Shown one piece after another: positions 1 to 11,515 of a DNA stretch of 36,794 nt. The notes under the pieces were generated by a model, which saw only the letters and a list, made by a program, of their open reading frames with translations, had not been told where the DNA came from and did no database searches. The translations under genes and the position numbers were made by a program. The stretch spans positions 1 through 36,794 of the forward strand of contig JACRFA010000139.1 in NCBI GenBank assembly GCA_016218065.1, written 5' to 3'. Origin of the DNA: Ignavibacteriota bacterium (GTDB lineage Bacteria > Bacteroidota > Ignavibacteria > UBA10030 > UBA6906). The first letter of the stretch is position 1; each line of letters starts with the position of its first letter.

Positions 1-2
1 AA

Positions 3-140
3 GAACTCATTGCCAAAATTGAACACTTCATCAACGGGTACAACAAGCATCCCAAACCATTCATGTGGACTGCCACTGCTGATTCCATCTTTGCAAAAAT
101 CGAACGACTTTCTCAACTTATTTCTGGAACGCGACACTAG
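3..140 (+). CDS. IS630-family transposase, C-terminal end (partial)
   Basis: The open frame enters from the left edge and ends at TAG 138-140, leaving 45 codons. The visible residues include NGYNKHPKPFMWTATADSI and end in LISGTRH. This matches the conserved C-terminal end of IS630/Tc1-mariner-type DDE transposases, where an F-x-W-T-A-T/KAD motif precedes a short helix and a terminal SGT(R/Q)H. The catalytic DDE region lies outside the window, so it cannot be said whether the element is intact. No terminal inverted repeat could be identified in the following bases. The family is known to insert at TA dinucleotides, which matters for the TA-flanked small element at 9333-9473. Confidence 0.8.
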   Translation, partial: ELIAKIEHFINGYNKHPKPFMWTATADSIFAKIERLSQLISGTRH

Positions 141-7892: not shown

Positions 7893-8104
7893 GAATTTGT
7901 CATTCTGAGTTCCGAAAAGCAGGCGTGGCTATTTGAGGCAATGACGTGCGCTCCCATTTGTCATTCTGAACGAGCGGAGCGAAGTGAAGAATCCAGAACA
8001 GAGCACGACTGGGTTTCTGGATTCTTCGGCTCTGAAAAACGAGCCTCAGAACGACAAATTCATGTACGTCATTAGCAGTTCCGAAAAGCAGGCGTGGCTA
8101 TTTG
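7893..8104. repeat. Composite repeat: two 28-bp direct copies around a 13-bp perfect hairpin
   Basis: A 28-base unit is identical at 7908-7935 and 8077-8104, both times preceded within a few bases by GTCATT. Between them 7986-7998 and 8015-8027 form a perfect 13-bp stem (GAAGAATCCAGAA and its complement) with a 16-base loop. The left side carries the GAGCGGAGCGAAGTGAAGAA pattern that also appears in the element at 9333-9473. It looks like a small non-coding palindromic element family rather than a gene. Confidence 0.7.
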
Positions 8105-8555: not shown

Positions 8556-8599
8556 TGAATTCAGCATAGAACATTTTTGCCGAAGGAGTGAGGGAAGCA

Positions 8600-9313
8600 A
8601 TGCGTAAACTACGTGTGGACACATTTCTGTCAGGCTCGGCTGATCAGGAGACCCGGCAATATCATGTGCTCGAGGGACTGAAAAGCCACTACGATGAGTT
8701 TTCACATAACCGTGTGTATCCGTCGTTGGCGGAGTTGGTGGATTTGTATGCGGCGCTGAAGAATATTTTGAACGGCATGAGCGACATTCAAGGTCGCTTG
8801 CCTCACGACATCAAGGAAGTGGATTTGGAGGAAGGGAAGCTCGTGTACGAAACACGCGGGATCAGCGACGACGACTTGACGCACGCGGCAGAACTGATCA
8901 CGTGGGCGCTTCCACAAATCAAGCAAGCCATCGAGGAAGGCGTGAGCATCTACACGTTTGTCGATGAACATATCCAGATCGAACAGGTGGGCATTCTCCC
9001 AATGTATCGCGAAGAAGGCTACTGGTTCGTTCCTGAAAACCGCGCGGCCTTGCTGCATCTTCTGCGGTACGAGATGTCGCTGTTCACCGCGGCGAATGAA
9101 CGGTTCAGGAGTTTGAAGACAACCAACATCGGCGAAGTGGAGCAGAAGCTCATCGTGCAATCGCCCGAATCGATCAAGCTGCGGCTCATCGCGCAGTATC
9201 GCGATCTCCCGAACCCGGCGACATTCATGTGCGAAACAGATTTGGATTTTCCATACGCCGAAACGATTTTGCCGATTGCAAAGCGAAAGTTGATGGCGCA
9301 GGTATTCTCATGA
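8600..9313 (+). CDS. Conserved-looking hypothetical protein, subtilase partner
   Basis: A 237-aa soluble protein of unknown family. The start is ATG 8600, with AAGGAG eleven bases upstream; an in-frame GTG at 8588 would sit inside that site. There is no signal peptide or membrane segment. The sequence is acidic and helical, with an YPSLAELVDLYAALKNILNGM helix near residues 43-65. A mixed segment IYTFVDEHIQIEQVGILPMYREEGYWFVPE follows around residues 115-145. The middle-to-C-terminal part resembles nothing I can name. It has its own strong promoter, and its stop codon lies six bases before the inferred native start of the subtilase gene. The two were therefore tightly coupled, suggesting a functional pair such as protease and regulator or substrate adaptor. 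That role is inference. Confidence 0.75.
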   Translation: MRKLRVDTFLSGSADQETRQYHVLEGLKSHYDEFSHNRVYPSLAELVDLYAALKNILNGMSDIQGRLPHDIKEVDLEEGKLVYETRGISDDDLTHAAELITWALPQIKQAIEEGVSIYTFVDEHIQIEQVGILPMYREEGYWFVPENRAALLHLLRYEMSLFTAANERFRSLKTTNIGEVEQKLIVQSPESIKLRLIAQYRDLPNPATFMCETDLDFPYAETILPIAKRKLMAQVFS

Positions 9314-9330
9314 GGCGGCATGCACGATAC

Positions 9331-9475
9331 TAACAGCGTGTTGAAAAGGCTCTCATGTCATTCCGAAGGAGCGAAGCGACTGAGGAATCTCTCTCTATTG
9401 GTATCAGATTCCTCACCCGCCAAAGAGCGTTGGGGTTCGGAATGACATTGACCTCAGTTTTTCAACAGCCTGCTA
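9331..9475. mobile_element. TA-flanked 141-bp MITE-like palindromic element
   Basis: Bases 9333-9473 are bounded on both sides by TA (9331-9332 and 9474-9475). The ends are imperfect inverted repeats sharing CA-G/-/-TGTTGAAAA (left 9334-9346, right complement within 9460-9472). Inner inverted arms carry GTCATTCCGAA near 9358-9368 and its complement TTCGGAATGAC near 9437-9447. GAGGAATCT/AGATTCCTC pairs also occur near the centre. TA duplication is the hallmark of IS630/Tc1-mariner-type transposition, and an IS630-type transposase end lies at 3-140. The element encodes no transposase. It separates the upstream ATG at 9320 from the subtilase body. Confidence 0.75.
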
Positions 9476-10899
9476 AATGTCCGATCTGCAGCCAGCATGT
9501 CGAGCAGTTGATCCGCGAGTTTCGCGGAGAGGGCGAGTTGCGCGTGGTGCAAAAGCTTCAGAGCCTCACTCCATCGTGGTCGCCGGCGGCCGGGCTGTGC
9601 GAGCGTTGCCTGTACCTGAATGAGTTTGCGTTGCGCGAGGAAGGCTTTCTTCCCGACCCTGACGCAATGGGAGTTCCGCAGCAGGCCGGAACGACTGCGC
9701 TGCGCAGCACGCTCTTTCGTCAGCGCGTCGGCAATGAGTTTGCCCTTCTGCCGACTCCGCTTCGACTCAACGCCGATCCGCGCTTCCGCGGCAAAGGCGT
9801 CACGATTGCGTTCATCGATTCCGGATTCTCTCCGCATCCTGATTTGATCAAGCGCTGGAATCGCATTCGAGCAATCGTGGACGTGACGGACGATCGATTC
9901 CCGCGCGCATACTTCTCTCATCCGCATGTTGAGAGCTGGCATGGCACCATGACGTCTGTAGCCGCTGCCGGCGATGGATACCTTTCGCGCGGCCTGTATC
10001 GCGGCATCGCATCGGATGCAGACGTTGTGTTGATCAAAGTGTGGGATACCAACACCCGCCACATCAGCATGCGGGACATCACCCGCGCGCTGCGATGGGC
10101 AATCGAGCACGCAGCCGACTACGGAATCAGAATCATCAGCCTCTCCGTTGCCGACGATGAACCTGCGTCGCTGCGTGAAAGCCCCGTTGATCTTGCGGTT
10201 GAGGACGCAGTGAGCAAGGGAATCGTCGTCGTCACGGCGGTGGGCAATAACCCGACGAAGCCCATCGTACCGCCGGCCAGCTCTCCCTCGGCAATCACAG
10301 TAGGCGGGCTTGATGATCAGAATCAGATCTGGAAAGACTATCGCCAGATGTTTCACTCCACGTTCGGCACAACGCTCGACGGCCACTTGAAACCGGAGTT
10401 GATTGCGCCCGCAATCTGGGTCGCCGGCCCGATTTTGCCCGGCACCGATCAATCGCAGGAAGCGCCGCTGCTCTTCAAGCTGTTGCACGTCGGCCAGCGA
10501 CATGCGGAGAACATTCTGGAGAACCATCGCGACATCTTGCATCACGCGCCGAAAGGTCTGGCAAAAGGAGACTACAAGTCGTGGGCGCGTTCGCGCATCA
10601 GCGAGATGAAATACATCGCTCCGCATTACAAGCACGTTGACGGCACGTCATTCGCATCGCCGATTGTCAGCTCGGTCGTTGCGCAGATGCTCGAAGCGAA
10701 TCCCGGTCTCTCTCCGGCCGATGTGAAAGCAATTCTCATGCATACCGCCGAGCCGCTGCGCCACGTCGCACGTGATCAACAGGGAAAAGGCGTTCTCAAT
10801 CCGCGTGCAGCCGTTGAGTTGGCGCTTGCCGGAACGCTGCGCGCCGGCGTACATCTCAGACATCCTCGCACACAACACATCCCCCACAATGAACAATAA
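9355..10899 (+). CDS. S8 family subtilisin-like serine protease with N-terminal CxxC/CxxC module
   Basis: The readable frame gives 514 aa. Catalytic residues are D155 (IAFIDSGFSPHPDL), H196 (SWHGTMT) and S432 (GTSFASPIVSS). The oxyanion Asn is in VVVTAVGNN (298/299). No signal peptide or prodomain is visible, so it appears cytoplasmic. Before the protease domain lie CPIC (C42, C45) and CERC (C82, C85), a likely zinc-binding pair. A helical insertion of about 60 residues (373-428) precedes the Ser motif. Codons 1-40 derive entirely from the TA-flanked element. Excising the element restores MHDTKCPIC from ATG 9320, giving a 478-aa native form. Present initiation at 9355 (AAAAGG upstream) or 9442 is uncertain. 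It overlaps the DUF4230 gene by 11 bases. Confidence 0.85.
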   Translation: MSFRRSEATEESLSIGIRFLTRQRALGFGMTLTSVFQQPAKCPICSQHVEQLIREFRGEGELRVVQKLQSLTPSWSPAAGLCERCLYLNEFALREEGFLPDPDAMGVPQQAGTTALRSTLFRQRVGNEFALLPTPLRLNADPRFRGKGVTIAFIDSGFSPHPDLIKRWNRIRAIVDVTDDRFPRAYFSHPHVESWHGTMTSVAAAGDGYLSRGLYRGIASDADVVLIKVWDTNTRHISMRDITRALRWAIEHAADYGIRIISLSVADDEPASLRESPVDLAVEDAVSKGIVVVTAVGNNPTKPIVPPASSPSAITVGGLDDQNQIWKDYRQMFHSTFGTTLDGHLKPELIAPAIWVAGPILPGTDQSQEAPLLFKLLHVGQRHAENILENHRDILHHAPKGLAKGDYKSWARSRISEMKYIAPHYKHVDGTSFASPIVSSVVAQMLEANPGLSPADVKAILMHTAEPLRHVARDQQGKGVLNPRAAVELALAGTLRAGVHLRHPRTQHIPHNEQ

Positions 10900-11515
10900 A
10901 TCATCGCTCATCATCATCGCCGTTGGCGTCGCGCTAGTTCTCGCAGCGTTCGCCGCTTACGTCGTTGTTGTGAAGATTCCGTCCGATCTGGCTGCGGGCA
11001 TCGCCAAAGGCGTCAACGAAGCGTTCAACTTCACGCCGCAGGTCAAGATGGAAAACACGGTCGTGATCGAACAGACGGTTCCGATCACCGAGCTTGCGAT
11101 TGTCTCGCGAGATATTTCTGTCGACTACACGTGGTCGCATGAATGGCTGGGAAGTACGAAGACGATTGCGCTGCGCGGAACGTTTACGGCAAAGGCGGGC
11201 TTTGATTTGCGCGAGCCGTTCGCTATCGAGATTACGAAATACCCTATCACCGTTCGGGCGAACATGCCGGCGCCACAACTTCTTTCTGTACAGATGAACA
11301 CGTACAAGATTCTTGAAGATGAAAGCGGGTGGTGGAATAGAATCACGAATGCCGATCGCGAGCTTGCTGTCGCAGCACTGCAACACCGAGCGCGGGAAGA
11401 AGCGATCAACTCCGGTATGCTCGCCGAAACGCGCGCGGCAATAGAAGCGCGTATCGCTGAGATCGTCAGGAAACACGACGCGACAATTGACCTGGGATAT
11501 TCATGGCGTAATTAG
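10889..11515 (+). CDS. DUF4230 membrane-anchored protein
   Basis: A 208-aa protein whose ATG (10889) lies inside the last codons of the subtilase gene, an 11-base overlap typical of translational coupling. Residues 5-26 form one membrane anchor (SLIIIAVGVALVLAAFAAYVVVV). The rest matches DUF4230 (PF14014): a strand-rich section with VEQ/IEQTVPITELAIV and the PITVRANMPAPQLLSVQM segment. The GWWNRITNAD loop and the helical REEAINSGMLAETRAAIEARIAEIV tail follow. Function of the family is unknown. As the third gene of the unit it may place the operon's activity at the membrane. No independent promoter is seen. Confidence 0.8.
   Translation: MNNKSSLIIIAVGVALVLAAFAAYVVVVKIPSDLAAGIAKGVNEAFNFTPQVKMENTVVIEQTVPITELAIVSRDISVDYTWSHEWLGSTKTIALRGTFTAKAGFDLREPFAIEITKYPITVRANMPAPQLLSVQMNTYKILEDESGWWNRITNADRELAVAALQHRAREEAINSGMLAETRAAIEARIAEIVRKHDATIDLGYSWRN

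Follow-up and report, generated by a model that had tools for sequence, protein, structure and literature searches.

An IS5-type MITE inserted in the start of a subtilase gene, and a putative translational restart at an ATGA overlap

The protease locus and its palindromic insert

The window, i.e. the whole stretch of 36,794 nucleotides that was analysed, carries on its forward strand, in this order, a gene of a family without name (8588-9313), a subtilase gene (Pfam PF00082, E 5.6e-39) and a DUF4230 gene (10889-11515). The upstream gene adjoins the protease in five relatives, and synteny is conserved in relatives on both sides of the protease. A palindromic insert separates the stop codon of the upstream gene (9311-9313) from the conserved KCPIC motif of the protease. 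Upstream of the operon, at 7893-8070, there is a further palindrome, a repeat of the GTCATTCTGA...GAAGAATCC type devoid of IS5-type ends.

The insert covers 139 bp (9334-9472, forward strand) and is bordered on both sides by CTAA (9330-9333 and 9473-9476), a target-site duplication for which the same-genus genome G001 has one uninterrupted CTAA at the same place. The left terminal inverted repeat, CAGCGTGTTGAAAA, occupies 9334-9347 and is a variant of the family form CAGGCTGTTGAAAAA, which is present on the minus strand at the right end (9458-9472). An inner hairpin spans 9355-9448 on the forward strand, with perfect 13-bp arms (9355-9367 and 9436-9448) that contain both candidate ATGs discussed below. 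Folded as single-stranded DNA, the element reaches -30.2 kcal/mol vs -16 kcal/mol for its shuffles (z -4.7). With these repeats and this duplication, its small size, the lack of a transposase gene, its multiple copies and its empty sites, the element has the features of a MITE. It has no match in Rfam, a plasmid search using the element gave none either, and a text search with the repeat sequence returned chance matches only.

The signals of the native start are intact. A Shine-Dalgarno-like GAGG (9312-9315, forward strand) is followed by the native ATG (9320-9322) in the context GAGG-CGGC-ATG, and this ATG has the same position in the two same-genus genomes, G001 and G002. The initial annotation had described the start of the gene as replaced by a MITE-like element at 9333-9473, and had placed ATG 9320 seven bases after the upstream stop codon. 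A MITE-like insertion has indeed displaced the start region of the protease, and ATG 9320 does follow closely on the upstream stop; the distance to TGA 9311-9313 is however six bases, the borders are 9334 and 9472, and the start itself is still there, the element being located after codon 4.

The protease gene pair was compared with its counterparts in G001 and G002 and in the same-family genomes G006, G009 and G012 (the G012 protease is truncated at a contig end). In G001, which corresponds to a public Chlorobi bacterium assembly (L061), and in G002, the orthologous place shows the upstream stop, 6-7 nt, an ATG, three codons and KCPIC. The protease N-termini read MNSPKCPIC and MFSPKCPIC in these genomes, and joining the flanks of the element in the window gives MHDTKCPIC. 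Alignment with relatives lacking the element, which the initial annotation had put forward as a check, thus reveals the empty-site allele in both genomes. Because same-genus relatives keep this allele the insertion is proven, a proof that does not extend to ongoing production of the protease. The IS5-type MITE insertion in this gene start is real and has well-defined borders; it occurred after the split from the same-genus relatives. As the element is repeated and the assembly consists of 319 contigs, the locus could also be a chimera assembled at the repeat, but the identical CTAA on either side and a synteny that spans the element in at least three relatives make such an artefact extremely improbable.

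Copies and parent of the element

Dozens of copies and related ends are present in the genome that contains the window (G000). The left flank of these reads (C/T)TA and the right one TA(G/A), and identical YTAR 4-mers border 12 of the 18 scored copy pairs, vs a mean of 4.07 in shuffled pairs (p about 1e-4). Since, within a copy, the bases beyond TA are also the same at both ends, the duplication is a 4-bp YTAR, here CTAA, and a TA-only duplication was rejected. YTAR is the known duplication motif of IS5 (PMC10359306). Most of the copies are located between genes or at gene edges, as judged by inspection, so that the copy in the window, by interrupting the start of a gene, is an unusual one for its genome. 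One copy, around 1509-1670 of locus L012, lies at the 3' end of a 551-codon frame and apparently extends the protein with element-encoded residues. The genome also holds a second MITE type, with the same terminal repeats and a different inside (GATCCACGA...TGGATAAG), which was found at loci L066, L068, L069, L072, L077, L078, L080, L082, L086 and L087.

Searching 100 related genomes for the terminal repeat with YTAR led to full-length elements of 1359 bp in G044 (locus L139) and 1370 bp in G082 (locus L159), which share the terminal repeat CAGGCTGTTGAAAAA with the MITE and are bordered by CTAG on both sides. The protein of the G082 element is an IS5-family transposase (NF033581, E 2.1e-70, above cut-off), and that of the G044 element is 64% identical to it. 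More relatives of this transposase, with YTAR-type flanks and similar ends, are found in genomes of the same order. The element at 9334-9472 is an IS5-derived MITE, because the full-length elements that share its ends and are bordered by CTAG duplications encode an IS5-family transposase. With that family (NF033581 type; DUF772 and DDE_Tnp_1) it shares the terminal repeat and the YTAR/CTAG duplication, and unlike its full-length members it is 139 bp long and encodes no transposase.

The transposon is thus to be classed with IS5 instead of IS630. The initial annotation had deduced IS630/Tc1-mariner activity from TA flanks. Other copies with the same ends do exist in the genome, as it anticipated, but their flanks are YTAR rather than TA alone, and DDE_3, the transposase family of IS630, has no match in G000; in a search that covered this genome and 40 relatives, the few DDE_3 loci found elsewhere lacked matching ends. 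A reading frame at the contig start (window 1-140) resembles the terminal part of an IS630-type transposase (PFMWTATADSIFAKIERLSQLISGTRH), an identity that was not confirmed by any model; this frame is unrelated to the 9334-9472 element. Other candidate parents were rejected: DDE_Tnp_1_6 (IS1182-like) gave a single contig-edge match whose ends differ, DDE_5 (IS701-like) was absent from the own genome, and DDE_Tnp_1 gave one IS4-like element with different ends. The latter (positions 1-1400 of locus L113, contig C150 of G000) is unrelated to the MITE: it is a complete transposon whose ends read CACTACTGTCCAAC and whose DDE_Tnp_1 transposase is intact.

No relative of the IS5-family transposase was found in G000, a 319-contig draft that may miss repeats and whose lineage may have lost the parent, and none of the ORFs adjoining unpaired ends in this genome looked transposase-like on inspection. 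Neither the MITE nor its ends were detected in G001 and G002. Since no relative of this transposase was found in G000 and these two genomes have neither MITE nor ends, the family most likely spread in its own lineage after the split from G001 and G002.

Candidate starts and the ATGA overlap

As the initial annotation had noted, the frame opened by ATG 9320 runs into a stop at 9443-9445, and ATG 9355 and ATG 9442 lie inside the element, in the frame of the protease. The native frame (9320-9445, forward strand) now has 41 codons and encodes MHDTNSVLKRLSCHSEGAKRLRNLSLLVSDSSPAKERWGSE; its stop codon, TGA 9443-9445, overlaps ATG 9442 in an ATGA (9442-9445). The frame from ATG 9442 encodes MTLTSVFQQPAKCPIC, the predicted peptide for this start being MTLTSVFQQPAK; it corresponds to an S8 subtilase at 9442-10899 on the forward strand. 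ATG 9320 has the lowest opening cost (about 14 kcal/mol) and the best Shine-Dalgarno pairing (-5.6 kcal/mol). The pairing is close to that at ATG 9442 (-5.4), where opening costs about 21 kcal/mol, while ATG 9355 (9355-9357, forward strand) has the highest cost, about 23 kcal/mol, and the weakest pairing (-3.2).

Bacterial gene pairs overlapping in ATGA are translationally coupled by termination-reinitiation (PMC6728339). The non-autonomous IS5-family MITE entered the subtilase gene at a CTAA located in its codons 4-5, and we propose as the best reading that the protease is still made by this mechanism, to which we give a probability of about one half. The ribosome-binding site of the native start and its ATG 9320 now open the 41-codon frame through the element; ribosomes loaded there would melt the hairpin, terminate at TGA 9443-9445 and begin anew at ATG 9442, which overlaps this stop. 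The 11-codon leader MTLTSVFQQPA, encoded by the MITE, would then replace MHDT before KCPIC. The initial annotation had left a choice between a new start supplied by the element and the shutdown of the gene. Both of its candidate starts are in the element, but it had overlooked the stop/start overlap, which suggests a third outcome. The fit may also be luck, since by a simple count of entry frame, exit frame and orientation about 1/18 of insertions would have it by chance. The insertion itself is of a known kind; the restart mechanism is attractive and may apply, but is putative.

A self-sufficient start within the element is also conceivable, either at ATG 9355, where the spacing AAAAGG-CTCTC-ATG is suitable and the frame is open to the protease, or de novo at a TTG/ATG near 9442. 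Starting at 9355 would give a leader of 40 element-encoded residues (MSFRRSEA...). The opening cost and the pairing at 9355, the poorest of the three starts, speak against it, as does the lack of a promoter-like site in the element; we consider such a start unlikely. Judged by consensus, the element contains neither a promoter nor a terminator. The restart at 9442 is preferred to a de novo start at 9355 because ribosomes arriving from 9320 would open up the stem in which 9442 is hidden.

The left end of the window copy bears on an in-frame fusion from ATG 9320. In most other aligned copies with this end the A-run is one base longer, and with the usual A-run the insert would add 144 bases, i.e. 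48 codons of open frame; the native start would then read through to the protease if the run had been shortened by an assembly or sequencing error, or if slippage occurred. Short reads rarely miscall short homopolymers, however, and four A in a row offer little opportunity for slippage. Moreover the window copy has other private differences at this end, so that real divergence is likely, and we see only a slim chance for the fusion. The window copy and its closest copy both lack a C. Because an element one base longer adds 48 codons, the insertion may at first have been in frame, in the manner of Rickettsia palindromic elements (PMC10969869), and the present frame a later state, or the short A-run may be an error.

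The overlap was also examined across the family. ATGA is present at the right end of all 36 scored copies, and the frame remains open past the element end in 28 of them. The left end also has an outward ATG, open in 21 of the 37 places scored, a count in which a few places are right ends caught by a loose pattern. That the family acts as a portable restart cassette, with an outward ATG in open frame at each end and the right one always within ATGA, is a speculative reading that we rate as rather improbable. If it held, a 5' insertion in the right phase would create a coupled leader-plus-gene pair instead of killing the gene, and the survivors would be kept.

State of the protease and likeness to known systems

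The protease frame consists of 474 codons uninterrupted by stop or frameshift, with its CxxC motifs and D/H/S triad intact. Compared with G002, pN is 0.22 and pS 0.68, and in relative-rate tests against G001 and G002 the amino-acid rate is not raised (chi-square no higher than 1.8). Because of saturation at synonymous sites, dN/dS is uninformative on selection after the insertion, which is inseparable from selection before it. A CBM48-like domain (Pfam AMPK1_CBM, CBM_48), which four relatives keep at the C-terminus (L032-L035), is lost from the protein, and the new 3' end of its gene (window 10840-10899) now falls inside the start of the DUF4230 gene. As this domain is lost as well, decay of the protease is possible. 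The insertion would in that case have inactivated the gene, hairpin and frame change abolishing useful translation, and the protease would be an early pseudogene. The broken native frame and the stable stem that holds both in-frame ATGs, each of which costs more than 20 kcal/mol to open, agree with such a fate. The open codons, the catalytic residues and the normal amino-acid rate argue against it, though weakly, for a recent event would look alike; inactivation is a possibility we take seriously but find doubtful.

The locus is a clean example, bounded by empty sites, of a short transposon inside a coding sequence, which possibly leaves expression in place through a stop/start overlap. To our knowledge, the ends of the window family differ from those of ERIC, RUP, Correia and BOX. 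The family also differs from these bacterial MITEs by its outward-facing ATGs at both ends, and resembles them in being short, palindromic and multi-copy, with terminal inverted repeats and a duplication (PMC10969869). Bacterial MITEs sometimes carry frames that fuse to genes (PMC10969869). The Rickettsia palindromic elements (RPE) are likewise palindromic, about 150 bp long and located inside protein genes (PMC10969869). RPEs are however read through in frame, whereas the window element shifts the frame, so that reading from the native start stops before the protease, which then depends on a restart or an internal start. Should the restart be real, such insertions would be one route to ATGA overlaps and to new N-terminal leaders. 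The window has the same 4-nt stop/start overlap as known ATGA pairs (PMC6728339), but these consist of two old genes, whereas here the overlap was made by a transposon splitting one gene.
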